IMG/VR virus record: IMGVR_UViG_3300045141_000108
Location: 1 to 23,825 of that record
Source: a virus
Strand: one strand, 5' to 3'
Length of the DNA: 23,825 nt
A program made the translations under genes and the position numbers. The notes beneath the pieces are model-generated. The model made no database searches. It worked only from the letters and a program-made list of their open reading frames with translations, and had not been told where the DNA came from. This document shows positions 2,037 to 18,164 of the stretch, one piece after another (the stretch's first letter is position 1; each line of letters begins with the position of its first letter).

Positions 2037-2894
2037 ATGGAAACATCAATGCTCGAAACAATGGAGAAGTACGGGGTTAGCCTCGCTAACGCTGGACAGA
2101 GTGAGACGATCATCGGTCTTCGCACGTTGTACGTGCAAGGTCTTTCGGAAGTCTCCACCAAGCAAGCGGAAGCGGAGAAGAGCGGCGAAAGTCTGCTGAA
2201 GCAAGTCTCTTCTCTGACAGATACGGCAGAGAATCGGACTGAAGTTGCGGAACTGCGGAAGCAGTTGCGATCAATCGTGTTCGGAGCGATTGAGAGTAAC
2301 CCACAACTTGCCATGCATCTTGGTGAGGTACTGGGCGAACTCAAGACCGATGTTCTTGGTGAGAGGGATTACCTACTCGGCAAGGTGCGGCAAGAGATGG
2401 CACCTAAGCAGAGCATTCCGACCGATGAACTTTCCGAGCGGAAAGATGATCTGTCAGAACTGGCAAAGCTAATCCGTTGGCTTTGGGATCTCGTGAAGAA
2501 CGAGACTTTCGTGAAGACTTCCGAATTCAAGTCAGCATTCCCGATCAAAGCAAAGACCGAGAATGGGCAACCGGTGAAGGGTGTCTTCATTCCCGATCTT
2601 CCGAAGTTGCCTCGCACTGCGTCAGATAATTCCGCACCCGTTGGCCGTGCGGCAGTAATCGGGCGCATGAGTTTCGTTTGGAATGGTGACGCCATTCCCG
2701 TCGGAACATTCCCGTCTGACATTGCCCACGACTACGTGAGCGATGCGAAGTCAGGCTTTGTTGTTGACTTGCGAGGAATTCAAGAAGCGGTCAAGGCTAC
2801 CGGCGGAGATTTCTACTCTGACGCCGCATGGACCGTAGATTTCCCGACTGGCACACTTGGGCGGATGGCACTTCCCAAGAAGCAGGGTAAGTAA
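2037..2894 (+). CDS. Hypothetical protein with coiled-coil N-terminus (285 aa), monocistronic
   Basis: This protein starts METSMLETMEKYG. A second Met at residue 5 is an alternative, since GAAAGG lies 13 bases before the first ATG, further than usual. Residues 30-130 are charged, heptad-like helices (KQAEAEKSGESLLKQ, TEVAELRKQLRS). The C-terminal third (about 200-275) turns to mixed beta (MSFVWNGDAIPVGTFPSD, then FVVDLRGIQEAV and WTVDFPTGTLG). No catalytic motif is recognised. It stands alone between two regulatory-looking non-coding regions and is closed by a strong terminator, so it is transcribed separately. By eye its codons are more GC-rich than those of the structural genes, which could mean separate acquisition. 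The function is unknown. Confidence 0.8.
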   Translation: METSMLETMEKYGVSLANAGQSETIIGLRTLYVQGLSEVSTKQAEAEKSGESLLKQVSSLTDTAENRTEVAELRKQLRSIVFGAIESNPQLAMHLGEVLGELKTDVLGERDYLLGKVRQEMAPKQSIPTDELSERKDDLSELAKLIRWLWDLVKNETFVKTSEFKSAFPIKAKTENGQPVKGVFIPDLPKLPRTASDNSAPVGRAAVIGRMSFVWNGDAIPVGTFPSDIAHDYVSDAKSGFVVDLRGIQEAVKATGGDFYSDAAWTVDFPTGTLGRMALPKKQGK

Positions 2895-2903
2895 AGAAGA
2901 ACT

Positions 2904-2954
2904 AAGACCGAGACTCATTCTCAATACGGGAATGAGTCTCGGTCTTCTTCTTTC
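2904..2954 (+). terminator. Strong rho-independent terminator, possibly bidirectional
   Basis: Two 17-base arms (2904-2920 and 2930-2946; left arm begins AAGACCGAGACTC) are exact reverse complements around a 9-base loop and are followed by CTTCTTTC. The stem begins 10 bases after the stop codon at 2894. An A-rich stretch before the stem (AAAGAAGAACT) would also give a pyrimidine-rich tail on the opposite strand. Confidence 0.85.
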
Positions 2955-2984
2955 ACTAACTTTCGTGTGTGTGCGCACGCACAT

Positions 2985-3147
2985 ACTATCAGTATGTAGC
3001 ATACTGATAGTGAGAACCATTCTCACTTATGCAAACCACTGCATAAATATTCACGTCGAACATTTGTTCGGGAATTTCGCACAAGTGATAATGAGAACCA
3101 TTCTCAGAACGTTTGTTCGACGTACAAGTGTTCGGGAACACACGTTC
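2985..3147. promoter_or_regulatory. Operator-dense region: palindromes and three GAAC-N4-GTTC boxes
   Basis: The segment contains a 12-bp perfect inverted repeat with a 3-base loop (ACTATCAGTATG, 2985-2996 with 3000-3011). The 15-base palindrome TGAGAACCATTCTCA appears twice (3011-3025 and 3092-3106). Three GAAC-N4-GTTC boxes lie at 3058-3069, 3107-3118 and 3136-3147. GTGTTC-GG-GAACAC lies at 3128-3141. GAAC-N4-GTTC is the core of Gram-positive LexA (SOS) boxes; the first site reads TCGAAC-ATTT-GTTCGG. A phage repressor using similar half-sites is an equal alternative. No gene is read through here. Confidence 0.55.
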
Positions 3148-3202
3148 GACGGGCAATTTGTCCGAAATCGGTCGGTCTGGGCGGTTTGCGACGGAACGAA
3201 GT

Positions 3203-3232
3203 GGAGGTAATTCCATGAATACAAATCAATAA
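3203..3232 (+). other. Five-codon minigene with consensus ribosome site
   Basis: GGAGG (3203-3207), one of the best Shine-Dalgarno matches in the window, stands 7 bases before ATG AAT ACA AAT CAA TAA (3215-3232), which encodes only MNTNQ. It could be a regulatory upstream ORF, a minigene, or the remnant of a gene whose body was lost. About 240 bases separate it from the tail-fibre start. Confidence 0.35.
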
Positions 3233-3303
3233 ATAATACTTAGACTAAACCTAAAAACCCATAATTCAGAATAACAGGTTGACACACAGGATACTCTCAA
3301 CAT

Positions 3304-3401
3304 GAGACGGCCTGTAGGAATAGCCAATTGTGCGTGAAGGCAAACCCCATGCCCCGTCAATTAAGGTTAGATGCCGGCCTCGGTATACTACAGGCCGTCT
3401 C
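3304..3401 (+). ncRNA. Possible structured RNA or inverted-repeat element before the fibre gene
   Basis: GAGACGGCCTGTAG (3304-3317) and CTACAGGCCGTCTC (3388-3401) are exact reverse complements and enclose 70 bases. Inside, TAGCCAATTG (3321-3330) pairs with CAATT (3358-3362) and GGTTA (3365-3369) across a 2-base bulge with one G-U. GGCA/TGCC (3339-3342 with 3350-3353) and CCG/CGG (3374-3376 with 3381-3383) form smaller hairpins. The fold is a three-way junction closed by a 14-bp stem. It is followed by CTTATAC/GTATAAG (3403-3409 with 3416-3422) and the palindrome CGACCGGTCG (3427-3436). It could be a leader RNA, a separate small RNA, or a DNA-level inverted repeat. Confidence 0.4.
3361..3389 (+). 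promoter_or_regulatory. Candidate promoter for fibre-sulfatase operon
   Basis: TTAAGG (3361-3366), 17 bases, then TATACT (3384-3389), a strong -10 that touches the right arm of the 14-bp inverted repeat. The -35 is poor. A consensus TTGACA also occurs at 3279-3284, but the -10 position 17 bases later (ATGAGA) is weak. Transcription from here would start near 3396, giving a leader with the CTTATAC/GTATAAG hairpin. Confidence 0.35.
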
Positions 3402-3469
3402 ACTTATACACTATTGTATAAGGGATCGACCGGTCGTCTCACAAAAAATCTCGAAAGAAAGTTAGACCA

Positions 3470-4513
3470 ATGGCATCATCAACTCTCGCTGATCTACAAT
3501 ATCAATACTATGCAACTGCCCTAGGTATTTCACTAACAGCGGCGATGAATCAGTCTCTCAACGATTTAGAATACCAGGCGTTATCTATAGGCGCTCTATC
3601 TGGAGGTGGTACAGCCACTCCAATTCGTGATGAGGGAGTTCAAGTTGTAGCTGCTCCTAATAAGTTGAACTTCATCGGACCGACAATACAAGCAGCCAGT
3701 GATGGTGCTGGTGGAGCTAACGTTACTGTTGCGCCAACTGCTCTCTTAACCCCGTCCAATCCTGTAGGGCAAATCTCTGCTACGAACGTTCAAGCTGCGT
3801 TACAGCAAATTGATCAGAAACAAACTCTGACACAATGGATCGAAAACCTTAAGACAGGTACGGACGTCTTTGACGAATTTCTTGGTGCAGGTTCTGTAGT
3901 AGCTCCTGCTGTATCCAATAACTTTGGTTCTCTGGGGTGGACTGTTGCAACGTCTGCTGGTAACGGAACTGTTCAATTCCTTGGGTCTAATCCGTTCCCA
4001 GGGATACTTGTTCTATTGACTACTACTCTTAATGACATGGTGGCTGTTAACCTGGGCACCAGTGTTTTGGAGTTGGCTCACATTTTTATGAATGAGTGGC
4101 GTCTTCAAACCGTACAGGTTAATGATGGTACAAATAACTTTTCTGTTAGGGTTGGGCTTCATAATGACGCTGTTGGTGCGGAACCTACAAACGGGTTTTA
4201 CTTTAGGTACACTTCAGCGGATGGAGCTAACTGGAAGGCTGTTGTAGCTAATGCTGGTGTTTACTCAGTCTATGATACTGGGTTCCCTGCTGACGTTACA
4301 GCTAACGGTTACCACAGGTTCAGGATTACTTGTGACGGTACAAACTACAGGTTCTACATAGATGATAACCTAGTGGCTGGACCAGCTACTGCAAATATTC
4401 CGGGAGCGGGAAACAGGTACGCACCTGCCTGTAGTGTAATTAAAACTCTGGGTGGTGCTATTAAGGCTGTTAGAATTGATTACTTTGCTCTGCATTACGA
4501 GTTGGCCCGGTAA
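3470..4513 (+). CDS. Tail fibre / receptor-binding protein with lectin-like C-terminus (347 aa)
   Basis: The N-terminal 50 residues (MASSTLADLQYQYYATALG onward) probably attach to the virion. Residues 55-120 contain patterns common in phage fibres (VQVVAAPNKLNFIG, GGANVTVAP, ATNVQAALQQID). From about 135 to the end is a beta-rich domain of concanavalin/LamG-like style (residues FDEFLGAG, FYFRYTSADGANWKAV, YHRFRITCDG, YRFYIDDNLVAG), which usually binds carbohydrate. A purine-rich AAAGAAAG lies upstream of the ATG. It is separated from the sulfatase gene by 3 bases, so both are probably made together and may act on the same surface glycan. The family call rests on pattern only; no database search was run. 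Confidence 0.7.
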   Translation: MASSTLADLQYQYYATALGISLTAAMNQSLNDLEYQALSIGALSGGGTATPIRDEGVQVVAAPNKLNFIGPTIQAASDGAGGANVTVAPTALLTPSNPVGQISATNVQAALQQIDQKQTLTQWIENLKTGTDVFDEFLGAGSVVAPAVSNNFGSLGWTVATSAGNGTVQFLGSNPFPGILVLLTTTLNDMVAVNLGTSVLELAHIFMNEWRLQTVQVNDGTNNFSVRVGLHNDAVGAEPTNGFYFRYTSADGANWKAVVANAGVYSVYDTGFPADVTANGYHRFRITCDGTNYRFYIDDNLVAGPATANIPGAGNRYAPACSVIKTLGGAIKAVRIDYFALHYELAR

Positions 4514-4516
4514 CTG

Positions 4517-5806
4517 ATGCCTCCTAATATACTGTTCGTTCTAGCGGATGATATGCGGTACGAGCAGACTCTCTATATGCCGAATCTACGTTCTGTAGTA
4601 CAAACTCCGGGCACTACGTTTACAAGCGCAAGATGTAACTACGCTTTGTGTCAACCAAATAGAACTGGTTTCCTGACTGGGCAGCTTTCACGTTACCACG
4701 GAGTTACTGGTAACGGTTCATTGGGTACAGTGAACGAAGATAACACTCTAGCAAAATGGGTTCATGATAGAGGTTATAGGACTGGTCTTATTGGGAAATA
4801 CATGAATTCTTCAGATGTAAACGGGCGTCAGCCAAAGCCAGTTGGTTGGGATACTTGGTGGGAAGTTGTAGGAATAACTGGACCTGGAGATGAAGGTCAG
4901 AACAGTTATGCGTTTAAACAGAACGATGGGACTACACTAGCTGTAGCAGCACCTGGGTTGCATCAACTGGACTGGATTAAGAACAACAGCCTGACCTTTA
5001 TTGCAGGGTCAGAACCTTGGTTCTTATACATGACTCCTACAGCGGGGCACGTTCCGTTTGAGCCTTACCCTGCTGACTTGTTTAAGTTTGGTCAACTACA
5101 GTACCCAGTTATTCAAGAGTATGACGTAAGTGATAAACCTTCCTGGGTACAAGCTGCTGCCACTCCAACTGAAGATAAGGCTGCTCAATTCAGAGAAGAT
5201 TATAGGGCTCAGGTTAGAGAAGTGTTTAGTATGGACAAGATGCTACTAAGTATTTTCCAGGCGCTTCCGAATCCAGCCAACACTGTCATTATCTTTTCCA
5301 GTGATAACGGACTCTACATGGGAGAACATCGCAACCCTGCTGTAGGGATTGCAAAGGTTGATCCGTATGATGTAAACCTTAGAGTACCCTTGATTATCTC
5401 AGGACCAGGGTTTAATACTGGTAAGACATTTGATCAGCCAGTTTATGCTCTACAGGATATAACAGCAACTATTGTTTCCCAAACTGCTGCTATTCCAGGA
5501 GTTTCTCCCCAGGGTGGTACTGATCTGAAACAGATTATGGCTAACCCTACAGGGTATGATGGTAGGTACTTGTTACATCAGCGTGGTGGTGGTTCTGGTA
5601 ACTTTGTGTTATCTAACCTTCCATGTGATTGTGTAACTACCAAGACCAATAAGTTAATGCGGTGGCAGACTTCTGATCCAGATCAGTATGAATTATATGA
5701 CTTGGTGAATGATCCGAATGAGTTACAGAACCAGGCTTATGCGGGTGGTTCTTGGCTTACTCTTCGTAACCAACTAGAAGCTCTGTTGAATACACTGTTA
5801 GCCTGA
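4517..5806 (+). CDS. Sulfatase (alkaline phosphatase superfamily), 429 aa
   Basis: This is a full-length sulfatase-type hydrolase. It has the N-terminal metal motif PNILFVLADD (D11, D12) and the CxPxR signature C45-Q-P-N-R49, whose Cys is converted to formylglycine in active type I sulfatases. It also has K94 (LIGKY), H178 (TAGHVPF), the second metal motif D263-N264 (FSSDNGLYMGEH, with H271), and K280 before the RVPLI element. All expected active-site positions are present, so it should cleave sulfate esters, probably on a polysaccharide. It has no signal peptide, so it acts in the cell or as a virion component. Activity would need the host formylglycine-generating enzyme. The gene follows the fibre gene directly, with no clear ribosome site of its own. 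The sulfatase family is well supported; the substrate and virion role are inferred. Confidence 0.88.
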   Translation: MPPNILFVLADDMRYEQTLYMPNLRSVVQTPGTTFTSARCNYALCQPNRTGFLTGQLSRYHGVTGNGSLGTVNEDNTLAKWVHDRGYRTGLIGKYMNSSDVNGRQPKPVGWDTWWEVVGITGPGDEGQNSYAFKQNDGTTLAVAAPGLHQLDWIKNNSLTFIAGSEPWFLYMTPTAGHVPFEPYPADLFKFGQLQYPVIQEYDVSDKPSWVQAAATPTEDKAAQFREDYRAQVREVFSMDKMLLSIFQALPNPANTVIIFSSDNGLYMGEHRNPAVGIAKVDPYDVNLRVPLIISGPGFNTGKTFDQPVYALQDITATIVSQTAAIPGVSPQGGTDLKQIMANPTGYDGRYLLHQRGGGSGNFVLSNLPCDCVTTKTNKLMRWQTSDPDQYELYDLVNDPNELQNQAYAGGSWLTLRNQLEALLNTLLA

Positions 5807-5974
5807 ACAATCTGTACAAATGTCGTCCTCGTTCAGTAACTTAATGTCGTAGTATAGGAAACAGTTTCTACAAGCCTTGGTCTTCTTCACGTACCCGCTC
5901 AGTTTCCTCGGCAGGACTATGAAGTTCTTCGACTTCTGGCTCAAGCTGGGATTCTGATCTGGTGATTGATCCAT
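5798..5974 (-). CDS. Small zinc-ribbon protein (58 aa), overlapping frame
   Basis: An ATG at 5974 (minus) opens 58 codons to TAA at 5800-5798. The peptide runs MDQSPDQNPSLSQKSKNF, then IVLPRKLSGYVKKTKAC, and ends with two CxxC knuckles: C35-R-N-C38 and C53-T-D-C56, 14 residues apart. That is a compact zinc-ribbon layout common in small phage proteins. It overlaps the 3' end of the gene at 5868-6512 by 107 bases in another frame, and overlaps the convergent sulfatase stop by 9 bases. No good ribosome site is visible, so translation may depend on coupling. The paired CxxC motifs and a basic linker in a clean frame make chance less likely. It may bind nucleic acid or protein. Confidence 0.5.
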   Translation of the reverse strand: MDQSPDQNPSLSQKSKNFIVLPRKLSGYVKKTKACRNCFLYYDIKLLNEDDICTDCSG

Positions 5975-6512
5975 AGAGAAAGTCTAGCCATTCTTTAGGA
6001 ACGATCATAGTTTCTCCCAGCAAGAAGCTATGCATGAGATACTGTCCTGCGTCTATGACTCCCTCCATAAAGACGTCACGGTGTTGAGCATCTGTACCCA
6101 CCTTCTGTATGAAGCGGGACTTCTTTTCAATTTGCTTGATAGCAATGTCACCATTCATAATGGTATCCCAATTACTTCTGGCGTCTTGCCATAGCTCAAA
6201 GTTGTCAGGTATTACAGGCAACACTTCGTCTTCCACTGGCTCGCCAAACATAACGTCAGCGACTCGAACTGTGAAGATAGGAATTTGTCCTGAGAAGAAA
6301 CCAAGATAGAAGCACCTTGTCCTCTTAAGAGCTTCCAGTTCTCCATCATTCTCTATGCCAATGAGTGTGTAAACTGTATCACCAATTCGCATTCCTTCAA
6401 ATGGAATTGGCTTGTTGCCGTCTGAGAACTCAAAGTCCAAAGGGGCACTCACATTTACGTGAGCACCCCCATGAGCTTCTACTGTTGCTGGTGGGATATT
6501 AATAGGCTTCAA
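5868..6512 (-). CDS. Hypothetical protein in lysis operon (about 214 aa), TTG start
   Basis: The frame is open to an ATG at 6545, but I choose TTG 6512-6510. GGAGG lies 6 bases before it, and the TTGA overlaps the amidase stop by 4 bases, the usual coupled junction. The protein starts (M)KPINIPPATVEAHGG. Residues 20-100 alternate beta strands (HVNVSAPLDFEFSDG, DTVYTLIGIEN, CFYLGFFSGQIPIFTVRV). A helical stretch follows (about 105-190), then an acidic tail (EPEVEELHSPAEETERVREED). No transmembrane segment is seen, so it is not a holin. Being translationally coupled to the amidase suggests a role in lysis or in the virion lysin; I cannot name it. Confidence 0.7.
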   Translation of the reverse strand: MKPINIPPATVEAHGGAHVNVSAPLDFEFSDGNKPIPFEGMRIGDTVYTLIGIENDGELEALKRTRCFYLGFFSGQIPIFTVRVADVMFGEPVEDEVLPVIPDNFELWQDARSNWDTIMNGDIAIKQIEKKSRFIQKVGTDAQHRDVFMEGVIDAGQYLMHSFLLGETMIVPKEWLDFLYGSITRSESQLEPEVEELHSPAEETERVREEDQGL

Positions 6513-7291
6513 GCCTGGCCTCCTGTAGACCACCAAGGATTCCATTGATTGGTTTTAGTATCTAGAGAACAGACCCAAACAGCATTGTCTTTTCCTCTAG
6601 CTGTGACAATAATTGTGTCACCTTGAGTAGCGGCAGAAGGACTAGAGGTTAGTTCAAAGTCTGTAAAGACGTCATACCAAGTGTTAGGTTCTCCACCTTT
6701 ATTGGCGTAGAGACAGTTTGGTCCAGTTCCACGGACGAAATAGTATGGAGTTCCGTTGCTTGCTACGGCAACTTCTGGAGTATGCAAATCATCATCCTCT
6801 TGTTTGGGAGGCATTGGCAGGTCTGGAATGGGGCAACCAGCTTTAATGAAATCACAAATCTCGGGTCCAGGGCACATAGTATTGAACCAATGATTGTGAC
6901 AATACTTGATGTTAGAGATTTCATTTAGTATATCTCTATAGGCTACTTTAGCTTCATAGGGGAATGGATCGCCTAATCCTCCGAGGAAACAGACGGCTTC
7001 TGATTCGGAGTTTCCAGAGTTAGAACCATTTGCAGAACTGCGAATGCCATGATCACGACCGACGTAAACGTAACCATGAGGACACACAGCAAAATTATAG
7101 GCAATGTCGTTCCACCCTTGAGTATCCATATGATAATTCTGAATCACACGCATCTTTGTTGCACAAGAAGCATGTGGGAAGGAACCCATATGAGTTCCCT
7201 CCCAATGCCCTGTAGCAGAACGTGTGTTAATTCCTAAGGGAGTAGATTTAGGTGGCCTAGCTCCCCATTCACGTCTACTAACTTTGATCAA
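6509..7291 (-). CDS. Endolysin: N-acetylmuramoyl-L-alanine amidase (PGRP/Amidase_2) with lectin-like C-terminus
   Basis: Residues 1-155 match a peptidoglycan-recognition amidase: the opening VSRREWGARPP, first zinc ligand H29 (TGHWEG), GWNDIAYNF (60-67), and the H132...T138-x-C140-PG element supplying the other ligands. It would cut the bond between muramic acid and the stem peptide at the end of infection. Residues 170-260 form a beta-rich domain with W/G repeats (VASNGTPYYFVRG, TIIVTARGKDNAVWV, NQWNPWWSTGG) resembling tectonin or PLL-like lectin blades, presumably for wall binding. The start is TTG with GGGGAG 7 bases upstream, overlapping the previous stop. There is no signal peptide, so a holin is expected, but none is recognised here. 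The family assignment is strong; the lectin domain is tentative. Confidence 0.88.
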   Translation of the reverse strand: MIKVSRREWGARPPKSTPLGINTRSATGHWEGTHMGSFPHASCATKMRVIQNYHMDTQGWNDIAYNFAVCPHGYVYVGRDHGIRSSANGSNSGNSESEAVCFLGGLGDPFPYEAKVAYRDILNEISNIKYCHNHWFNTMCPGPEICDFIKAGCPIPDLPMPPKQEDDDLHTPEVAVASNGTPYYFVRGTGPNCLYANKGGEPNTWYDVFTDFELTSSPSAATQGDTIIVTARGKDNAVWVCSLDTKTNQWNPWWSTGGQA

Positions 7292-7294
7292 TAG

Positions 7295-7597
7295 CTATCT
7301 CCCCTTGTCTTCTTCGTATGTACCATGATGGTGCTTTACTTCTGCCATTTCTTTTGTAATATCTTCATCTTCTGACCAGGTTGCTATCAATACTTCATAA
7401 AGACGAAATGTTAATGGACTGAATCTAACTGGTGAGCAATGGACACAAGCGTTTGATTTGTCAAGATGATAGTTCTGATAAAAGCACCATAACAGAACTT
7501 CATTTACGTCGATCAATTCAACAGCCTCTCCATTTTCATTGTAGCCTGGTACTGGTCCATCTTCTGTTACTGATTCAGATAATTCACCAGGGATCAT
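7295..7597 (-). CDS. Hypothetical protein (100 aa)
   Basis: This frame runs from ATG 7597 to TAG 7297-7295. The stop lies within the ribosome site of the amidase, so the two are coupled. The sequence starts MIPGELSESVTEDG, includes EAVELIDVNEVLLWCFYQNYHL, a C-x-H-C segment (ACVHCSPVRF) and an acidic, His-containing tail (EVKHHHGTYEEDKGR). One CxHC alone is not enough to claim a zinc site. No membrane segment is seen, so I do not call it a holin, although its place just before the lysin is where one might be expected. The function is unknown. Confidence 0.65.
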   Translation of the reverse strand: MIPGELSESVTEDGPVPGYNENGEAVELIDVNEVLLWCFYQNYHLDKSNACVHCSPVRFSPLTFRLYEVLIATWSEDEDITKEMAEVKHHHGTYEEDKGR

Positions 7598-7609
7598 GAC
7601 TCAGATTTG

Positions 7610-7756
7610 TTAGCTATCCTCATGTAGTGCTTCCAACCATTGTTCAACTTCCCCAAGCTCTAGACTCTCTTCCCCAATAGGCAAGTAATCTACATCATCT
7701 CCTTCCGTTTCGCTTGCGGCTTCGTTTGGGTTTTCTACGTTAGGGGTATCAGACAC
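7610..7756 (-). CDS. Small acidic hypothetical protein (48 aa), GTG start
   Basis: A GTG at 7756 opens 48 codons, starting VSDTPNVENPNEAASETEG and containing YLPIGEESLELGEVEQWL, ending at TAA 7612-7610. The start sits inside the stop of the preceding gene (GTGTCTGA, 8-base overlap), and the stop is 12 bases before the next ATG, so it fills an otherwise empty gap exactly. The peptide is strongly acidic with an amphipathic C-terminal helix. It may be a partner or inhibitor of a basic protein; that is speculation. The fit and lack of in-frame stops support a real gene. Confidence 0.5.
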   Translation of the reverse strand: MSDTPNVENPNEAASETEGDDVDYLPIGEESLELGEVEQWLEALHEDS

Positions 7757-8051
7757 GAAAGGTCATAACTTTCTGAATAGCTGATCCAAGGTCAATGTTC
7801 TTTTCAGCACAGAATTTGAAGATGCAAAGAGTAGCATGAGCTAGTTCAATGGGAATTCCCATATACTCATGAGAAGAACTATCCTCAATGGCAATTTCTT
7901 GAAAAGGCCAACCTTGATTCTCTAGGAGAGTTACTTGTTCCATGAAGAATGAAACTTCATCAGAAACAGTAGTCTCAGATTCATCTTCGTGACGCATTGA
8001 ATCAATGATTGATTGAACACTATCCCAATCAATCTGGGTTGTTGCTGTCAT
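7749..8051 (-). CDS. MazG-like NTP pyrophosphohydrolase-related protein (100 aa)
   Basis: Residues 30-98 resemble small phage MazG/dCTPase-like proteins: a first helix DEVSFFMEQVTLL, a variable middle, then GIPIELAHATLCIFKFCAEKNIDLGSAI divided at its turn, where family members usually show ELAD followed by an I/V-rich helix and a GIDL turn. The usual metal-binding Asp of ELAD is His here (H72), and the first acidic pair is reduced, so activity may be lost or altered. Active members hydrolyse nucleotides to the monophosphate and pyrophosphate. GAGGAAGAG lies before the ATG. It is in the minus-strand operon between two small genes. The fold is likely; the reaction is uncertain. Confidence 0.5.
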   Translation of the reverse strand: MTATTQIDWDSVQSIIDSMRHEDESETTVSDEVSFFMEQVTLLENQGWPFQEIAIEDSSSHEYMGIPIELAHATLCIFKFCAEKNIDLGSAIQKVMTFRV

Positions 8052-8229
8052 TTATCTCTTCCTCTATCCAATAGGGTTCGATTTGTTGTGTGATTGTCAT
8101 ACCTGGGTAACGGCTTGGGTCTAGAGAATGTAAGGCATTAAGCCATCTTCTATCTGCCCTTCCAGAATCATAGGCTTGGATCGTTACCTCTATCAATATG
8201 CGGGCTTTGAACTTCTTTTCGCTGCGCAC
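8029..8229 (-). CDS. First gene of lysis operon, hypothetical (66 aa), leaderless GTG start
   Basis: The protein begins VRSEKKFKARILIEVTIQAYDSG and contains RRWLNALHSLDPSRYPGM, ending EEEINDSNNPD. The GTG start is 7 bases after a TATAGT -10, so transcription should begin at or next to the start codon. No Shine-Dalgarno fits in that space. A beta strand (ARILIEVTIQAY) followed by a helix suggests a small alpha/beta protein. It overlaps the MazG-like gene by 23 bases. I do not recognise a family. Confidence 0.65.
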   Translation of the reverse strand: MRSEKKFKARILIEVTIQAYDSGRADRRWLNALHSLDPSRYPGMTITQQIEPYWIEEEINDSNNPD

Positions 8230-8236
8230 GTCCCGT

Positions 8237-8265
8237 ACTATACATTATTTTGGGTAGCTTGTCAA
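8237..8265 (-). promoter_or_regulatory. Leftward promoter, consensus, leaderless
   Basis: On the minus strand TTGACA (8265-8260), a 17-base spacer and TATAGT (8242-8237) form a near-perfect housekeeping-sigma promoter. Seven bases separate the -10 from the GTG at 8229, which puts the start codon at the predicted +1. It should drive the amidase-containing operon. Confidence 0.8.
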
Positions 8266-8270
8266 GGCTT

Positions 8271-8299
8271 TTCTCATCACTTGACGTGTAGTTTATAAC
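8271..8299 (+). promoter_or_regulatory. Rightward promoter of structural operon, leaderless
   Basis: TTCTCA (8271-8276), 17 bases, TATAAC (8294-8299), then 6 bases to the GTG at 8306. The -35 is partial (4 of 6) and the -10 good (5 of 6). A TTGACG at 8281 is wrongly spaced. A weaker -35 would suit activation or late expression. It lies back to back with the leftward promoter. Confidence 0.6.
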
Positions 8300-8305
8300 T
8301 TAAAC

Positions 8306-8851
8306 GTGGCAAGGAAATCCGAGGTTACGTCCAACCCCATTCGGATGTTGCGATTAAGTCGAACTATGACACTAGAACAGTTCTCGGATGCGTGTGGGAT
8401 ACATCTACAGGCTGTATATCTCAATGAGATGGGCATGTATCCTACTATTCTTCCAGCTATTCTGCGAACGATGAAGTATTATGGAGAAATCCCTGAGGAA
8501 GCAGAAGAGGAATATCAAGCCTATGTTAAAACTGAACGATATAGTTTCGGAGACAATCATACGCCATACGAACTTGGAACTCCAAGCATTACAGTATCAT
8601 CAATTAAGACTTTTCGGACCATACTTGGATACTCAACTGCGTTTGGATTTGCAAAGGCCATCTGTATTAACCCAACAATTATCCGACGGGTAGAGTTTGC
8701 CAAGGCACTTGAATTTCCAGGACAATTGAACTTTGCACTCCGAGATATTCAAGTACCACCGGATGATATTGAAGAACTAGAACTGAGGCATCAAGAGTTT
8801 TATGGAAGATTTAGACTTCGGAACCGACGAACCAGCAGTAGCAAAGCCTGA
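8306..8851 (+). CDS. Double helix-turn-helix regulator (181 aa)
   Basis: The GTG start is at the predicted transcription start. Two similar helical units are visible: residues 11-60 with an XRE-like HTH (TLEQFSDACGIHLQAV, then YLNEMG) and residues 98-150 with a second (STAFGFAKAICINPTII, then RRVEFAK). Each is followed by a P-x-x-I type end. The C-terminus is basic (RFRLRNRRTSSSKA). Two HTH units in tandem suggest binding to two half-sites as a monomer or to adjacent operators. As first gene of the structural operon, beside a divergent promoter pair, it could control both directions. It overlaps the terminase small subunit gene by 50 bases. The DNA-binding role is likely; the target is unknown. 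Confidence 0.65.
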   Translation: MARKSEVTSNPIRMLRLSRTMTLEQFSDACGIHLQAVYLNEMGMYPTILPAILRTMKYYGEIPEEAEEEYQAYVKTERYSFGDNHTPYELGTPSITVSSIKTFRTILGYSTAFGFAKAICINPTIIRRVEFAKALEFPGQLNFALRDIQVPPDDIEELELRHQEFYGRFRLRNRRTSSSKA

Positions 8852-9491
8852 ACCTCCTAAATTAAGTGACGCAGATATTCGTGTTCTCTCTTATGTAGAG
8901 CAGTTGTATTGGGAAACTGGGAAGGTGCCCTCTCAGGCTGCTGTAGTAGATGGCCTTGATCCCCTTGCCAGCCTTAAGACTAGAAACCTTGTCAAGAAGG
9001 CGTGGGAGAAGGAAAGATTTCAAAGGGCATTAACAGAACGTGGAATAGAATTCAAAATTGAAGAGAAGATTCTCTCACCAAAGCAGATAGTTTTGGTCAA
9101 TATGCTTCTGAATGTGGGAGATAAGAAGTCTCTAAGACAGAAATTGGAGCTTCTTAAGGTCACAATGGTTCAGTATAATGCTTGGTTACGCGACCCTGCT
9201 TTTCATCAATACCTTACAATGCGTACTGAACAGCTATTCAATCACTCAGATCATGAAGCGTATAAGAGTCTAGTAGAGCAAGTGATGAATGGTGACGTTA
9301 CTGCCATGAAATTGTTCTTTGAAATGCGGGGTATTTACAATCCCAAGGTTACTGTTGACATTAATATTGAAACTGTTGTATATCGCCTTGTTGAAATTGT
9401 TGGTCGTCATGTTAGAGATCCCCAAATACTTCAATCAATTGCTAAAGAGGTTGAAGAGTTAGGATTGCCAAAACGTGCCCTCACGGCTTAA
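8802..9491 (+). CDS. terS: Terminase small subunit-like protein (229 aa)
   Basis: The gene starts inside the previous one (MEDLDFGTDEPAVAKPEPP) with AAGAG shortly upstream. Residues 20-75 form a helix-turn-helix-like region (LSDADIRVLSYVEQLYW, GKVPSQAAVVDG). The central part resembles phage small terminases with an insertion-element-type HTH (LSPKQIVLVNMLLN, TMVQYNAWLRDPAFHQYL). The C-terminus is helical and suited to oligomerisation. In packaging the small subunit selects viral DNA and hands it to the large subunit. The assignment rests on position directly before the large terminase (17-base overlap) plus the HTH pattern. Confidence 0.75.
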   Translation: MEDLDFGTDEPAVAKPEPPKLSDADIRVLSYVEQLYWETGKVPSQAAVVDGLDPLASLKTRNLVKKAWEKERFQRALTERGIEFKIEEKILSPKQIVLVNMLLNVGDKKSLRQKLELLKVTMVQYNAWLRDPAFHQYLTMRTEQLFNHSDHEAYKSLVEQVMNGDVTAMKLFFEMRGIYNPKVTVDINIETVVYRLVEIVGRHVRDPQILQSIAKEVEELGLPKRALTA

Positions 9492-10980
9492 AGCAGGAAT
9501 TAAAAACGAAAAACAAGCGTTTCAATCATTTGCTGACGCTTTACGTGAATCTGTTCGTTTCCCAAACATTAATAACTATAAACCGCATGAGAAACAGCAA
9601 ATGTTCCATGAGAGCCATGCACCTAAGAGGCAGTTCGTAGGGGGCAACAGGAGCGGAAAGTCCTTTGCTGGTGCGGCAGAAGCCATATGGTACGGCAAGG
9701 GTGAGCACCTATATAAGAGGCTGCCCTGGGACGTGCCCACAAGAGGTAGGATTGTAACTGTTGATTTCAAACAAGGCTGGGAAAAGATTATCAAGCCTCT
9801 GTTACAAGCTCTAATTCCCAAGACTATGCTTATTGATGGGTCATGGGATCGTAGCTTCAACAAAGACTTGCACACGCTTACTTTGGATAATGGTGCGTTC
9901 ATAGAGATTATGTCCTATGAACAAGAACTAGACAAGTTCGCTGGTACTTCTCGCCACTGGATTTGGTTTGACGAAGAACCTCCCAAAGAGATTTTCACCG
10001 AATGTATGCTCAGGTTGCTAGATACAGAAGGTCATTGGTGGATGACGATGACTCCTGTAGAAGGTATGACGTGGACATATGATGATATTTATTCTAGGTA
10101 CGGTATTGATCCATATCTCTTTGTTGTCGAGGTTGATATGGACGATAATCCGTATCTTACTACGGAGGGGAAAGAGCTGGCATTAAGTGGTCTTTCCCAA
10201 GAAGACCTAGATGCTCGTAAGCATGGTAAGTATATCAGTATCGGTGGATTGATTTACCCTGAGTTTGATCAATATAAGCATGTGATTGAACCTACAGGAA
10301 CTCCACCTGGCTGGTTACGCTTTGATATGATGGATAGTGGTTTGCGAAATCCAACTGCTTGGTTGTTTGCTTGTGTGGATCGTGAAGGAACGGTTATTAT
10401 TCTAGATGAACATTATGAAGCTGGACGAATTGTATCTCATCATGCCAAGATAGTAAAGGAAAAAGACGAATCCTTCGGTGCTCCTGCTTATCGTGTTGGT
10501 GATCCTAGTATTGTTAGTCGTAATCCTGTCACCGGAACATCCATCCAATTGGAGTACGTTTTCAACGGCGTACCTATTATTCCTGGCAATAACGATGTTT
10601 CTGCTGGTATATTACGCCTCAAAACTTATCTCTCAGGCTCCGTAGTTGAAGGGTCTAAGTCTCCTAAACTATACATTTGTAGGAACTGTGTCAATCTGAT
10701 CTGGGAAATGAGAAAATATCGTTGGAAAAGATGGGCACATAAACAACTGAATTATGAGCGTAACAGGCCAGAAGAACCCGTTAAAAAGGACGATCACGCT
10801 TGCGATGCCTTGCGCTATGGTATAGCGTCACGACCAGAGACGGACGATGGCGCATTCGTCCCTGCCACCCACCCCAACTACGGGAGTGAGGCAGTAGAAT
10901 TAGACAAACCTGTTATTGATAGAGAGATTACTCTAGCCAACAGAAAGTATGCAGACTACAATCTAGGAGAAGATTACTAG
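9475..10980 (+). CDS. terL: Terminase large subunit (501 aa)
   Basis: This packaging motor has an N-terminal ATPase with Walker A GGNRSGKS (56-63), Walker B WIWFDEE (162-168, catalytic E167/E168) and coupling motif TMTP (191-194). The C-terminal RNase H-like nuclease has D284 in RFDMMDSG followed by RNPTAWLF, and the closing DHACD motif (440-444) with ALRY. Both halves are complete and the length is typical. It translocates DNA into the prohead through the portal and makes the end cuts. The start is GTG, overlapping the small subunit by 17 bases, and AGGA lies about 10 bases upstream. The next gene begins on its last base (TAGTG). Confidence 0.97.
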   Translation: MPSRLKAGIKNEKQAFQSFADALRESVRFPNINNYKPHEKQQMFHESHAPKRQFVGGNRSGKSFAGAAEAIWYGKGEHLYKRLPWDVPTRGRIVTVDFKQGWEKIIKPLLQALIPKTMLIDGSWDRSFNKDLHTLTLDNGAFIEIMSYEQELDKFAGTSRHWIWFDEEPPKEIFTECMLRLLDTEGHWWMTMTPVEGMTWTYDDIYSRYGIDPYLFVVEVDMDDNPYLTTEGKELALSGLSQEDLDARKHGKYISIGGLIYPEFDQYKHVIEPTGTPPGWLRFDMMDSGLRNPTAWLFACVDREGTVIILDEHYEAGRIVSHHAKIVKEKDESFGAPAYRVGDPSIVSRNPVTGTSIQLEYVFNGVPIIPGNNDVSAGILRLKTYLSGSVVEGSKSPKLYICRNCVNLIWEMRKYRWKRWAHKQLNYERNRPEEPVKKDDHACDALRYGIASRPETDDGAFVPATHPNYGSEAVELDKPVIDREITLANRKYADYNLGEDY

Positions 10981-11908: not shown

Positions 11909-12059
11909 AAATGAAGATGTTGGAATGTCTGACGAAGAGGAATTGCGTCGTTGGACAGAATCTCTTGCCAATCCTGGGCTTGGAGAAGAACTAATTGAGT
12001 CTTACGGAAATGAGTTCGCCGAACTCGGCCTCATCCCAACAAACGAAGACAACGTTTGA
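11832..12059 (+). CDS. Small acidic hypothetical protein (75 aa, start uncertain)
   Basis: The frame ending at 12059 bridges the gap before the portal. The starts considered are ATG 11832, preceded at 6 bases by GGGAG, and ATG 11925, which leaves a 44-residue acidic protein (MSDEEELRRWTESLANPG). The frame is open further back to 11697, where it would encode a hydrophobic helix, but that part lies wholly inside the preceding gene and is probably incidental. The last 44 residues look like a real helical acidic protein ending LGLIPTNEDNV. It overlaps the portal start by 65 bases (49 if the portal begins at ATG 12010). The function is unknown. Confidence 0.45.
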   Translation: MNRVMTKEWTSYAQLQTSQTSSLSSENEDVGMSDEEELRRWTESLANPGLGEELIESYGNEFAELGLIPTNEDNV

Positions 12060-14082
12060 GCATGTAACTGGTGCTAAGTCTCAACGGGAACTGCTGAATT
12101 TTGCACAAGAGAAGTTCAGTAAGGCTAAAGAGTATCGGCAACAATTCGAAAATCAGTGGTATATGAATCTGGCGTTCTATTTTGGACGCCATTATTTGCA
12201 ATGGAATGTTTCAAATGGTACTGCTGCTGTTGCTCGAATGTTTGAACCTCCCGCTCCACCTTGGCGAGTTCGTCTTGTAGTTAACAAGATCAGAGCTTAT
12301 ACTCGTAAGGAAATGGCTAAGCTCACAAAGGAAAATCCTACTGGGTTTGTAGTTCCACAAAGCTCAGATGATGAGGATATTCTAGCTGCGCAGGCTGGTG
12401 ATCATCTAGCTGAGTTCTTCTGGCGGGAATTGCAAGTAGACCTTCAAATTCGTCGTGCAGTTTTCTGGATGAGTCTTACAGGTACAGGGTTCTTGAAGGA
12501 CGGATATGATCCGAATAAGAAATTTGATGCTGAAACTCAGGGTAATTGTTTTTGTGAACGAGTAACTCCACTACATATCTTCGTTCCTGATGTTCAGGAA
12601 GAAGAAATTGAAAATCAGCCTTGGGTTTTCCATGCTGCCAGTAAGTCTCCTGGCACAGTTGAGAACGTATATGGAGTAACTGCAAAGGCTGATTCTAAGG
12701 GTTCTGAAATGATTGAGGATCGGTTCCTCAATGCTATGGGTGTTCGACAGAATAGTAATAAGAACTACTGTTATGTCAAAGAGATGTGGATTAAGCCTGG
12801 TGCGGATAAGAGGTTTAAAGAAGGTGGATTGATTACCTGGATTGGTGATCAAGTTCTCCTAGTTCACAAGCAATGGCCTAACGCTCATGGAGATTATCCC
12901 TTCACTAAGATCGACCTAATGCCTACAGGTAGGTTCTACTCAGATTCTAGCGTAGTCGATCTAATCCCCCTTCAGAAAGACTACAACAGAACTCGGTCGC
13001 AATTGATTGAGGCGAAGAATCGTATGTCTAAGCCTCAATTGATTGCCCCGAGAGGATCAGTAGACCCTAATAAGATTACATCTGAGCCTGGTCTTATTAT
13101 TCAGTATCAGCCTGGATTCCAACCCCCTGAACCTTTGAAGATGGAGGGTATTCCTTCCTATGTAATGGAAGAGTTGAATCGTACTGATTCTGATATGCAG
13201 GACATTTCTTCTCAGCACGCTATTTCTCGTGGTGGTGCGCCTCCTGGGGTTCATGCGGCAGCAGCTATTTCTTACTTGTTGGAACAAGATGACTCAATTT
13301 TGGCCTCTGCTATTAGTTCCATTGAACTAGGTGCTGAGAAACTTACGAAGCATTTCTTGTCCTATGTTACTGAGTATTGGGATGCACCAAGACAAGTTCA
13401 GATTACAGGACAGAATGCTGGATTTGAAGTTTATGAACTAGATAAGAATTCTCTTGGTGGAAATACAAACTATGTAGTTCAGGCTGGTTCTGCGACGCCT
13501 CGCTCAACTGCTGCTAAACAAGCATTCATTATGGAGCTTTTCAAGATGGGTTTGGTTCCACCTGAGAAAACTCTTCGTTACTTGGAGATGAATGAGACTG
13601 GCAGGTTGTATGAGGAAATGCAGGTTAATGCTCGTCAGGCTCAACGTGAAAACGTAAGAATGGCGCATGGTGATCAGCCTTCAGTGAATACTTGGGATGA
13701 TCATATTGCTCACTTGACTGAGCATGATAATTACAGGAAGCGTCAAGAATACGAAACTCTTGATCCTGAAATTCAGACATATTTTGAAGAGCATGTTAGA
13801 GGACACAAAGCCTTTGTTCTGATCCATAAAGGTGTTCCACAGGAATTGGTTAATATGGCTCTCCAAGACCCCTCTGGAATGCAATTGGATAGTCTACTTT
13901 ATCAACCTCCACCGGGACAACCAATGCCGCCGGGACCAGGAATGGGGCCACCACCACCAGGACCACCAAAATCTCCGCCTCCTAATATGCCTGCTCCGGG
14001 ACCAGTTGGTCATCCACCAATTCCTAGTGGTGGACCACCGCCAGGAAATCCTCCACCGGGAATTGGAGGACCTCATCCATAA
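11995..14082 (+). CDS. Portal protein (695 aa) with proline-rich C-terminal extension
   Basis: The size, position after the terminase, and sequence pattern fit a podovirus portal: N-terminal helices (AKEYRQQFENQWYMNLAF, FGRHYLQWN), a conserved core with RLVVNKIRAYTRKEMAKL, the stem/clip region, then a crown with SQHAISRGGAPPGVHAAAAI. Twelve copies form the ring for DNA entry and tail attachment. The start is TTG 11995 with GGAG 9 bases upstream; ATG 12010 is the alternative. The last 60 residues are nearly all Pro, Gly and Met (from YQPPPGQPMPPGPG to GGPHP), unusual for a portal and similar to the protein at 15091. Its ATG-sharing junction with the next gene is TAATG. Confidence 0.9.
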   Translation: MSLTEMSSPNSASSQQTKTTFEHVTGAKSQRELLNFAQEKFSKAKEYRQQFENQWYMNLAFYFGRHYLQWNVSNGTAAVARMFEPPAPPWRVRLVVNKIRAYTRKEMAKLTKENPTGFVVPQSSDDEDILAAQAGDHLAEFFWRELQVDLQIRRAVFWMSLTGTGFLKDGYDPNKKFDAETQGNCFCERVTPLHIFVPDVQEEEIENQPWVFHAASKSPGTVENVYGVTAKADSKGSEMIEDRFLNAMGVRQNSNKNYCYVKEMWIKPGADKRFKEGGLITWIGDQVLLVHKQWPNAHGDYPFTKIDLMPTGRFYSDSSVVDLIPLQKDYNRTRSQLIEAKNRMSKPQLIAPRGSVDPNKITSEPGLIIQYQPGFQPPEPLKMEGIPSYVMEELNRTDSDMQDISSQHAISRGGAPPGVHAAAAISYLLEQDDSILASAISSIELGAEKLTKHFLSYVTEYWDAPRQVQITGQNAGFEVYELDKNSLGGNTNYVVQAGSATPRSTAAKQAFIMELFKMGLVPPEKTLRYLEMNETGRLYEEMQVNARQAQRENVRMAHGDQPSVNTWDDHIAHLTEHDNYRKRQEYETLDPEIQTYFEEHVRGHKAFVLIHKGVPQELVNMALQDPSGMQLDSLLYQPPPGQPMPPGPGMGPPPPGPPKSPPPNMPAPGPVGHPPIPSGGPPPGNPPPGIGGPHP

Positions 14083-14255: not shown

Positions 14256-14747
14256 ATGGCTAACGCACAAATTGGAAACCGGGCAGGTGTGTCTGCTGTA
14301 GGAAATAACGGATTTTTGGCTAATATTACAGCAGATGGAGCTAACACTGTAACTGTTGATGATACATTTGATATTGATGTTGGTAGAAACATTGATATTG
14401 TTAATAAGAATACTGGTGCAGTTCTAGCTTCTGCTCGTCAAGTAACTAACATGACTTCTGCTGGAGTCATGACTTATGGTGGTGCAGATGTTGCAGCAAT
14501 TCCAGGTACTCATGTTGTTGTAGCTCCTGGTACTACAGTTCCATTTGGATATTCTAATTTGAATGGTGGATCAACTCCAGGTGAAGGATTTAATCTAGGT
14601 GGGGAAGCTACAACAATTGACCGTCTTCGTAATCGTCTTAATGGTATCAATGCTACTACCTATAGTAATACTGAACTTGATAAAATGACTGAGAACGATA
14701 TGATTTATGCTGTTCGTTTGTACGAAGCACCGGGGTCTATCAGGTAA
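14256..14747 (+). CDS. Capsid-associated protein sharing the major capsid insertion domain (163 aa)
   Basis: Residues 20-90 match the insertion domain of the major capsid protein in this window: TADGANTVTVD is identical in both (25-35 here), followed by VGxxIDI, TGAxxAxxRQ-x-T and TYxGADV at the same spacing. The rest (residues 92-163) contains GYSNLNGGSTPGEGFNLGG and a helical end (IDRLRNRLNGINATT, TELDKMTENDMIYAVRLYEAPG). A decoration, cement or head-fibre role is suggested because it shares a capsid surface domain and lies between portal and scaffold. That is inference; a structural copy packed in the head is also possible. Confidence 0.75.
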   Translation: MANAQIGNRAGVSAVGNNGFLANITADGANTVTVDDTFDIDVGRNIDIVNKNTGAVLASARQVTNMTSAGVMTYGGADVAAIPGTHVVVAPGTTVPFGYSNLNGGSTPGEGFNLGGEATTIDRLRNRLNGINATTYSNTELDKMTENDMIYAVRLYEAPGSIR

Positions 14748-15091
14748 TGGCTAAGAAAAAGACTTCAACCCCAATGATTTCAGGGAGTCCATCAGAAGAA
14801 GCTTCTGAGAAACCTGGGATGGATACTCCTGCCGAAGAATCAGCAGAAGTTGGTAAGCCTCCTGTTAAGGTTACCAAGAAGTCTATGAATCGTAGACTTC
14901 AAAAAGCTATTCCTACGAATCAAGCATTGAAGCCTAATAGTAATAAGGTGACAACTTTTAAGAAGCCTGGATTCCAAGCTGGTGGACTTCTACAACAAAT
15001 TCAAGGTGGGCATCCTCCTTCTCCACAGCATGTTATTAATGTGAATGTTCATCCAGCGGTTTCACGTAGACTTCAAACAAGGAATAAATAA
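14747..15091 (+). CDS. Basic, probably disordered hypothetical protein (114 aa)
   Basis: ATG overlaps the previous TAA (TAATGG). The protein starts MAKKKTSTPMISGSPSEE, has an acidic stretch (EEASEKPGMDTPAEESAE), then basic segments (KVTKKSMNRRLQKAIP, NKVTTFKKPGFQAGG) and ends VHPAVSRRLQTRNK. The composition suggests it is mostly unstructured. Two RRLQ peptides occur in it, a motif shared with neighbouring small genes. Its position between the capsid-domain protein and the scaffold suggests a minor head component or assembly aid; the family is not known. Confidence 0.7.
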   Translation: MAKKKTSTPMISGSPSEEASEKPGMDTPAEESAEVGKPPVKVTKKSMNRRLQKAIPTNQALKPNSNKVTTFKKPGFQAGGLLQQIQGGHPPSPQHVINVNVHPAVSRRLQTRNK

Positions 15092-16414: not shown

Positions 16415-17623
16415 ATGGCCCAAGCCACGATGACGGCTTTGACGGCTATTCTGAAGGAAATTTATGAGGGACGTATTGAGACTCAGCTTCAGAATGAAGT
16501 CGTTGCAGCCACGAGAATTGAGCGTACTTCCGATGGTGTTGTAGAAACTGTCGGTGGTAAGTATGTGGATTTCCCAATTCGTGTCGGTCGTAACTCTGGT
16601 ATTGGTAACCGACTCGAAAACGAAGCCCTGCCTGCTGCTGGCGCTCAGCAATACGCTGCACCCCATGTTCCTTTGACCTACTGTTATGGTAGAGTTCGTC
16701 TTACAGGCCAGTTGATTGAACTGGCTGAGAAGAACTACCAGTCATTCTCTTCTGCTCTTGATGAGGAAATGAATGGTGTTAAGGATGACGCAGCCAAAGA
16801 CTACAACCGTCAACTCTACGGTAACGGTACTGGTGCTATGGCTAGTGTTACTGCTGACGGTGCAAACACTGTTACTGTTGACAATATTCAGTATCTTGAA
16901 GTAGGTCAACAGATTGACATTCGTACTCGCTCGACAGGAGCTACTGTTGCGGCGAACCGTCAGATCACAGCAATTAACGAAAACACCAAGGTTATTACCT
17001 ACGATGGTGCTGATGTTACTGCCACAGCAACAGAAGGCATTTATCGTATGGATAACTTTGCGGGTGGAACTTCACGAGAGCTTTCTGGATTTGATCTTAT
17101 TATCTCAGATACTCTCGTCCTTCACGGTGTCGATCCTGCTTTGCAGCCCAAGTGGAAGGCCACGGTCAAGAATAATCCTGCTGGTGCCGGAACTTTGAGG
17201 GCACTTTCAGAAGGTATTATGATTGAGACGTGTGACGCTGTTAGAACTAAGGGTGGAAAGACCACGGCTATCTTTACTGGTCTTGGTTGCCGCCGGGCGT
17301 ACTTCAATCTCTTGGTTCAGCAGAGGCGTTACACTGACACTAAATCCTTCGCAGGTGGTTTCCAGGGCTTGCCATTTAACTACGGAACTGAGATTCCTGT
17401 AGTGGAAGATGTGGATTGCAAGCCTAATACCATGAAGTTCCTTGATGAGCCTGCTTTTAAGATTTTCCGTAATAAGCCCTGGCATTGGGGAGACACTGAC
17501 GGAACGGTTCTTAAGTGGGTTGGTGGATACGATGCTTGGGAAGGTTTCCTTAAGCAGTATTCCGAACTTGGAACTACTCGTCGTAATGGTCATGGTACAC
17601 TGAACGACCTTATTGAAGGTTAA
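16415..17623 (+). CDS. Major capsid protein with insertion domain (402 aa)
   Basis: AAAGGA stands 6 bases before the ATG, one of the better ribosome sites here, as expected for the most abundant virion protein. Residues 1-135 (TALTAILKEIYEGRIETQL, VDFPIRVGRNSGIGNRLE, SFSSALDEEMNG) and 213-402 (FDLIISDTLVLHG, GLPFNYGTEIPVVEDVDC, WHWGDTDGTVLKWVGG) fit an HK97-fold coat. Residues about 140-212 are a beta-rich insertion starting near MASVTADGANTVTVD and ending EGIYRMDN, closely related to the small protein at 14256. Insertion domains commonly decorate or stabilise capsids. There is no sign of an N-terminal delta domain or cleavage site. A hairpin follows the gene. Confidence 0.9.
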   Translation: MAQATMTALTAILKEIYEGRIETQLQNEVVAATRIERTSDGVVETVGGKYVDFPIRVGRNSGIGNRLENEALPAAGAQQYAAPHVPLTYCYGRVRLTGQLIELAEKNYQSFSSALDEEMNGVKDDAAKDYNRQLYGNGTGAMASVTADGANTVTVDNIQYLEVGQQIDIRTRSTGATVAANRQITAINENTKVITYDGADVTATATEGIYRMDNFAGGTSRELSGFDLIISDTLVLHGVDPALQPKWKATVKNNPAGAGTLRALSEGIMIETCDAVRTKGGKTTAIFTGLGCRRAYFNLLVQQRRYTDTKSFAGGFQGLPFNYGTEIPVVEDVDCKPNTMKFLDEPAFKIFRNKPWHWGDTDGTVLKWVGGYDAWEGFLKQYSELGTTRRNGHGTLNDLIEG

Positions 17624-17690: not shown

Positions 17691-18164
17691 GTGGACGAAA
17701 AGAAAAGACTTATTGAACTTGCAGACGGGTCATACGTTGAATCTGATGTTCTCAATATTGTTGAGAAGATCAGAGCGTATGATCCTAATCTTAATATTAA
17801 ATATTGCGACCCTGCTCTTGCTGATCTTGATGATGCTCCTTATAAGATCGTGGAATTATGTCCAGATGGTGTTGAGCGAGTTGTATTCTATGTCTGGAAG
17901 CTAGATGAAACGATCCTTGAACGAATTTACGCCGCTGACAATGCTTGTAATAATGTTCTTGTCGGGCTTAATAACAATAATCTTATTGCTAAGAAGGCTC
18001 AGGAGCGTCGCTATGAGGAAATTAGATTGGAAGATCAAGATATTGTAGCAAGTTACTTGAAATCCCCGAAGGGGAAGTTTAGTTTCAAGCGTCGTGAAGA
18101 TGATGCTCTAGTCACTATTGACGATCAAGAAGGTAGAAGGCATAAAGTCAATGAACGTCGGTGA
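17691..18164 (+). CDS. Hypothetical virion-region protein (157 aa)
   Basis: GTG start with AGGAG 5 bases upstream. The protein starts (M)DEKKRLIELADGSYVESDV and shows KIVELCPDGVERVVFYVWKLDE, ILERIYAADNACNNVLVGL, and a basic, probably extended C-terminus (YLKSPKGKFSFKRREDD, RRHKVNERR). The N-terminal part looks alpha/beta. It sits between coat and adaptor, the slot in which head-completion or minor capsid proteins are found, but no family is recognised. It overlaps the next gene by 14 bases. Confidence 0.75.
   Translation: MDEKKRLIELADGSYVESDVLNIVEKIRAYDPNLNIKYCDPALADLDDAPYKIVELCPDGVERVVFYVWKLDETILERIYAADNACNNVLVGLNNNNLIAKKAQERRYEEIRLEDQDIVASYLKSPKGKFSFKRREDDALVTIDDQEGRRHKVNERR

Follow-up and report, generated by a model that had tools for sequence, protein, structure and literature searches.

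We found that a podovirus genome from the IMG/VR collection encodes a complete type I sulfatase immediately behind a tail-fiber-like gene, at a position that other glycan-active proteins occupy in its close relatives. From sequence and gene order, the protein is probably a desulfating enzyme that takes the place of a depolymerase and removes sulfate groups from the host's sugar coat. While each part of this arrangement is already known, the combination of a sulfatase with a phage receptor module appears to be undescribed in the sources that we searched. The stretch of DNA analyzed, referred to here as the window, is one entire IMG/VR record of 23,825 bases. It is the genome of a podovirus, with genes for the small and large terminase subunits (TerS and TerL), a P22/SU10-type portal, a capsid protein, an SU10-type adaptor, and an endolysin. 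The features relevant to the analysis are as follows (labels such as L002 denote other loci that we compared).

3470–4513, plus strand: fiber-like gene (347 aa) with a conserved N-terminus, a variable C-terminal half, and a weak LamG-like signal
4514–4516, plus strand: 3-base gap between the fiber stop and the sulfatase start, read from the sequence
4517–5806, plus strand: type I (formylglycine) sulfatase, assigned from PF00884, an AlphaFold2 (AF2) model, PDB fold matches, and aligned catalytic residues
4649–4663, plus strand: formylglycine motif C45-Q-P-N-R49 (CxPxR), with C45, P47, and R49 conserved in the alignment
5868–6545, minus strand: conserved hypothetical gene forming the right border of the sulfatase slot, 51% identical to L002 1090–1731 in the same place
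6509–7291, minus strand: endolysin/amidase (phrog_1493 endolysin, 79.9 bits), 59% identical to the L002 gene in the same place
8802–9491, plus strand: terminase small subunit (phrog_24579, 59 bits)
9475–10980, plus strand: terminase large subunit (PF03237, 43.9 bits; phrog_2, 95.9 bits)
11995–14082, plus strand: P22/SU10-type portal protein (PF16510, 74.9 bits; phrog_156, 175 bits)
16415–17623, plus strand: major capsid protein (phrog_14242, 318 bits)
18118–18807, plus strand: SU10-type adaptor protein (PF24175, 89 bits)

The sulfatase frame opens with ATG, and its 429 amino acids are encoded by 4517–5803. In the family-model search, PF00884 matched at 103.2 bits (E 2.1e-29; profile positions 1–298 of 301) against a curated cut-off of 25 bits, and PF16347 (SGSH_C) reached 29.4 bits, barely above its cut-off. 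A 32-sequence alignment and the accompanying residue table show that D11, D12, C45, P47, R49, K94, H178, D263, N264, and K280 match bacterial sulfatases; the calcium-binding D-D...D-N residues and the catalytic lysine, histidine, and lysine are thus all present and aligned. An initial annotation, made from the letters alone, had called the gene a complete sulfatase on the basis of these residues (all except K94), and both its residue numbers and its gene coordinates were right; the PF00884 search that it had proposed as a check agrees. The sole departure from the canonical set is in the K-x-H motif, where the histidine is M96, followed by N97. We do not regard this as a defect because the bacterial clade to which the protein belongs has the same trait (GKYLN).

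The AF2 model, built from the 32-row alignment (pLDDT 86.1, pTM 0.92), has the alkaline-phosphatase-like alpha/beta fold of solved sulfatases. A Foldseek search of the PDB returned carbohydrate sulfatases, the best being 5g2v, the N-acetylglucosamine-6-sulfatase BT4656 (E 2.8e-25, TM 0.79). The initial annotation had named a structure prediction lacking the metal site as evidence that would count against it; the prediction is confident and has the sulfatase fold. Type I carbohydrate sulfatases (PF00884, SulfAtlas S1; e.g., BT4656 and the S1_11 enzyme BT3177, 7p24) share this fold with the window protein, as well as the D-D/C-x-P-x-R/K/H/D-N/K set and a C-terminal SGSH_C-type subdomain. However, the window protein is only approximately 20% identical to the solved enzymes and differs from them in being phage-encoded, 429 aa long, leaderless, located behind a fiber, and M96/N97 at the K-x-H motif. 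In all likelihood, it hydrolyzes sulfate esters. An enzyme of the same superfamily that cleaves phosphodiesters or phosphonate monoesters, acting on phosphate-containing wall polymers, would have the fold and the CxPxR site in common with it, and the phosphonate monoester hydrolase 4uph is among the PDB matches. The best fold and sequence neighbors are nevertheless carbohydrate sulfatases, and the PehA model score (40.7 bits) falls far below its cut-off of 900, which leaves a phosphoesterase extremely improbable.

For catalysis, C45 of the CxPxR motif would be the residue converted by formylglycine-generating enzyme (FGE). No match to an FGE gene was found in the 23.8-kb record, and FGE-family matches were found in three of five genomes that carry related sulfatases, a count that reflects genomes of uncertain completeness. 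These figures would also suit a protein that only binds, its sulfatase fold serving as a lectin for a sulfated glycan, with FGE maturation absent or unneeded. However, the protein has retained every catalytic residue although it is only approximately 30% identical to its bacterial relatives, which implies that catalysis is under selection, and we consider a purely binding role highly unlikely. We favor a catalytic protein that would be activated by the FGE of the host.

The N-terminus of the sulfatase coincides with the first core beta-strand (MPPNILFVLADD), and there is no signal peptide, as had been claimed from the letters; those bacterial comparators whose reading frame is complete have longer N-termini that carry an extra leader. 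In composition and codon usage, the gene is typical of its own phage (GC 0.443, GC3 0.358), and its codon-usage correlation is the third-highest among the 20 genes of the record. In a maximum-likelihood tree, it falls inside a 15-row, mostly actinobacterial clade of GKYLN-type sulfatases (support 100/99), on a long branch (2.06). N97, W111, and NTLAxW- and PxGWDxW-like segments are common to it and the GKYLN-type enzymes of Rubrobacter, Nonomuraea, Nocardia, and Thermoactinospora. Where those enzymes have a full frame, they also have an N-terminal leader, whereas the phage copy is leaderless, long-branched, and about 33% identical to its bacterial relatives at most. Given that distance, the same gene was not found as bacterial cargo; its discovery as such, in unrelated loci, would have counted against the initial annotation by that annotation's own criteria. 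The closest named TerLs, at approximately 40% identity, are from a spring podovirus and Arthrobacter phages; a host search with the window TerL at E ≤ 1e-20 was negative in 395 genomes from the class to which one actinobacterial carrier of a sulfatase belongs.

Some sulfatases act in the cytoplasm, among them choline sulfatase and certain arylsulfatases. The gene might be an auxiliary metabolic gene, with a cytoplasmic sulfatase taking sulfate from small imported esters and feeding sulfur metabolism during infection. Sulfatases have been reported among viral sulfur-cycle auxiliary genes, for example from deep groundwater (cited in PMC10029852), and the two cases have in common a sulfatase on a virus contig. 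However, the window protein is no choline sulfatase (67.8 bits for TIGR03417 against an equivalog cut-off of 433), and its nearest relatives are the mostly actinobacterial GKYLN-type enzymes. It is also leaderless and is encoded in a receptor slot away from metabolism and replication genes, with no link to sulfur metabolism genes, in contrast both to those auxiliary sulfatases and to a viral sulfatase with an N-terminal leader (L017) that is found among methylase and replication genes. We therefore regard a metabolic role as decidedly unlikely.

The identification of the upstream gene as a fiber comes mainly from its N-terminus, which is common to the corresponding gene in relatives collected by TerL. 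Residues 3–88 are 73% identical to L104 and residues 3–103 are 49% identical to L105, while the C-terminal part (155–340) has 29% identity to part of the L107 fiber. A conserved start with an exchanged end is the usual pattern of phage fibers, and the conserved part would be the virion anchor. The initial annotation had further ascribed a lectin-like end to the fiber; the LamG-like model PF13385 gave 18.9 bits, under its cut-off of 27.6, so that such an end is at most hinted at. Its observation of a 3-base spacing was accurate (4514–4516). There is no obvious Shine–Dalgarno sequence between the fiber stop and the sulfatase start, and the two genes are probably translationally coupled. Near-zero gaps behind the fiber module recur elsewhere (6750/6752 in L104, 3011/3011 in L105, and 7526/7529 in L107); in L104, one extra gene of 170 aa separates the fiber N-terminal gene from the gene in the slot discussed below.

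To compare this slot, relatives of the phage were collected through TerL or TerS. The closest is L002 (TerL 77% identical); TerL identity is 68% for L104 and 66% for L105 and L111. In L104, L105, and L111, the slot encodes a PF15892 BNR_4 beta-propeller (39, 54, and 54 bits, respectively; cut-off 27.3), with identical slot genes in L105 and L111. In L002, a weakly similar fragment, cut by the contig end, is located beside the same two right-border genes as in the window. A profile of the BNR_4 slot proteins weakly matched solved structures of rhamnose-glucuronate lyases and a PL25 ulvan lyase (E 4.5e-4 to 0.045), which suggests that these proteins cleave polysaccharide; the AF2 model of one was poor (pLDDT 46). 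In a more distant relative, L208, a pectate-lyase-type tailspike (PF12708, 54.8 bits) is encoded between TerS and TerL. An enzyme may not be a constant occupant of the slot, since L107 and L110 carry proteins without a family assignment there. The L107 open reading frame (7526–8119, 197 aa) overlaps the fiber stop with its start (ATGA). We considered and set aside an SGNH esterase for it, as the motifs were seen by eye only (FDGQSL...DGLHWS) and no Pfam, PHROGs, PDB, or phage match was found.

PF00884 was found in none of the 88 TerL/TerS relatives; because many of these are fragmentary and end short of the slot, the figure sets a bound on absence without proving it. Within its phage group, the window sulfatase is the only case. 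However, it is more than a stray cargo gene because the slot holds other glycan-active proteins in relatives, and this exchange strengthens the initial placement of the gene in an adsorption module, which had relied on adjacency. We are confident that the sulfatase belongs to the receptor module.

As to what it does there, we propose a receptor module of two genes, with the sulfatase as its exchangeable enzyme. The upstream fiber would be the conserved virion anchor and the coupled downstream gene would supply a glycan-active protein, a type I sulfatase here and a BNR_4 propeller in close relatives. The enzyme would be made in the host cytoplasm, where host FGE would convert Cys45 to formylglycine, and the folded protein would join the tail or leave the cell together with the virions. 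Since the sulfatase itself lacks an anchor domain, this model assumes that it binds to the fiber. During the next infection, it would take sulfate esters off a host polysaccharide (capsule, slime, or wall-linked), which would either expose a receptor or free the virion from a sulfated decoy layer. On balance, we lean toward such a virion-borne enzyme that is activated by host FGE and desulfates a surface glycan at entry. Its main rivals are the metabolic role weighed above and release at lysis. In the latter case, the leaderless sulfatase would build up in the cytoplasm, be freed when the cell bursts, and keep progeny from being trapped by desulfating cell debris or slime, and virion membership would be unneeded. 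The lack of both a signal peptide and an anchor domain would fit, as would the nearby endolysin gene, though that gene is on the other strand. However, the sulfatase is coupled to the fiber and not to lysis genes, BNR_4 proteins occupy the same slot in relatives, and in another virus, described next, a sulfatase domain is fused covalently to a baseplate-region protein. Action at release is consequently unlikely, and we retain action at entry as the preferred reading.

Searching IMG/VR directly with the window sulfatase gave no close relative, and an alignment-based scan found eight loci with distant sulfatases, three of which (L021–L023) are near-identical contigs of one virus. In L021 (IMGVR_UViG_3300025112_000078), a contractile-tail virus, positions 5470–10623 encode a protein of 1717 aa whose C-terminal part is a sulfatase domain (105 bits for PF00884) in which CxPxR is kept. 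The D-D pair is kept as well, as the raw sequence reads LILVDDIG and the V/S in the residue table is an alignment slip. This protein is very probably a virion protein because its gene is located between baseplate hub-type and wedge-type genes. L020 (IMGVR_UViG_3300005611_001882) encodes a leaderless sulfatase of 510 aa at 2382–3914, whose ATG overlaps the preceding stop (ATGA, 2382–2385), with TerL, portal-like, and capsid-like genes shortly downstream. Other loci were of a different kind. The L018 sulfatase (8764–10314) has a lipoprotein-like leader (ALGC) and is encoded on the opposite strand between a portal gene and fiber-like genes; it is more like a lysogenic cargo gene, perhaps changing the host surface. 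Two were set aside as phage-structural cases: in L019, the sulfatase is in an apparent bacterial flank beside outer-membrane-type genes, and in L016, it is at the end of a 448-kb contig.

The five phage sulfatases in the tree are scattered and form no common group. At least three changes of label are forced by strongly supported branches, and the minimum over the tree is five. A broader possibility is that tail-borne desulfatases form a genuine class of entry enzyme, one that phages have acquired several times. Unrelated lineages (the window podovirus, L020, and L021) would have placed type I sulfatases independently in structural modules, either coupled to a fiber or fused to a baseplate protein, where they would modify sulfated glycans of the host while leaving the chain whole and would borrow the FGE of the host. 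We put this generalization forward tentatively, at slightly less than even confidence.

The rarity of sulfatases in phage genomes, noted in the initial annotation, holds in the collections that we searched. A tblastn search of 50,697 phage records with the window sulfatase matched ten, and no true phage relative was found among the matches examined. For example, Campylobacter phages A11a and A18a (26% identity) were rejected, as the A11a sulfatase has enterobacterial chromosome genes as neighbors (PTS, emrD-, and ilvB-type) and the record consequently looks contaminated. The block in question (L006; MG065691.1, Campylobacter phage A11a, 77121–90350; PTS, symporter, emrD-type, and ilvB-type genes) is a probable contamination that creates false phage matches. 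Two fecal “Bacteriophage sp.” contigs (L007 and L008) were rejected for the Bacteroides-type glycan-utilization or metabolic genes alongside, and the match to AFYI01000001 was rejected as a Salmonella chromosome contig. In BFVD, a fold search found the sulfatase fold in giant viruses of eukaryotes only, with no phage protein below E 0.001. No phage-tail sulfatase was found in the papers searched, which came largely from open-access journals and included no preprints; viral sulfatases come up in them only as sulfur-cycle auxiliary genes (PMC10029852).

The PF03781 domain has a C-type-lectin fold related to FGE and is not a sulfatase. Under the name FGE-sulfatase, such domains occur in phage tail-fiber variable proteins, for example in Desulfovibrio piger prophages (PMC12724379); the name and the tail location resemble those of the window sulfatase, but the window has no PF03781 match. 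Another parallel is offered by tail-borne depolymerases and deacetylases (pectate-lyase tailspikes, BNR/sialidase-like propellers, and SGNH esterases), which, like the window sulfatase, belong to the adsorption module, are exchanged among close relatives, and, as we infer for the sulfatase, act on surface glycans. Unlike them, the sulfatase would take off sulfate and leave the chain intact, its gene is separate from that of the anchor, and it would need host FGE. Most phage entry enzymes described to date either cleave chains or take off acyl groups. If our reading is correct, sulfate removal would add another kind of cell-surface chemistry, and sulfated surface glycans would be receptors for phages, or barriers to them, on bacteria in the environment. 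Infectivity would also hang on a post-translational modification made by the host (cysteine to formylglycine), so that only hosts able to activate the enzyme would support infection. Should the slot prove to be a general cassette, a survey of it across this podovirus group would reveal which glycan modifications hosts deploy against phages.

Other features of the record were also observed. A gene of 285 aa at 2037–2894 (plus strand) is 36% identical to its L104 counterpart in the same place and is the codon-usage outlier of the record (GC3 0.57). Its counterpart is on the minus strand in L104, and apparently also in L107, L110, and L113, a difference that may stem from a local inversion or a replacement. 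Directly after this gene, at 2904–2946, there is a perfect inverted repeat, its 17-bp arms separated by 9 bases, which resembles a terminator stem. At 21005–21343, on the minus strand and thus opposite to the structural genes, an open reading frame of 112 aa has a LAGLIDADG-like motif (SAGFFDGEG) and is possibly a free-standing homing endonuclease; a similar open reading frame is found in L110 at 14381–14842.
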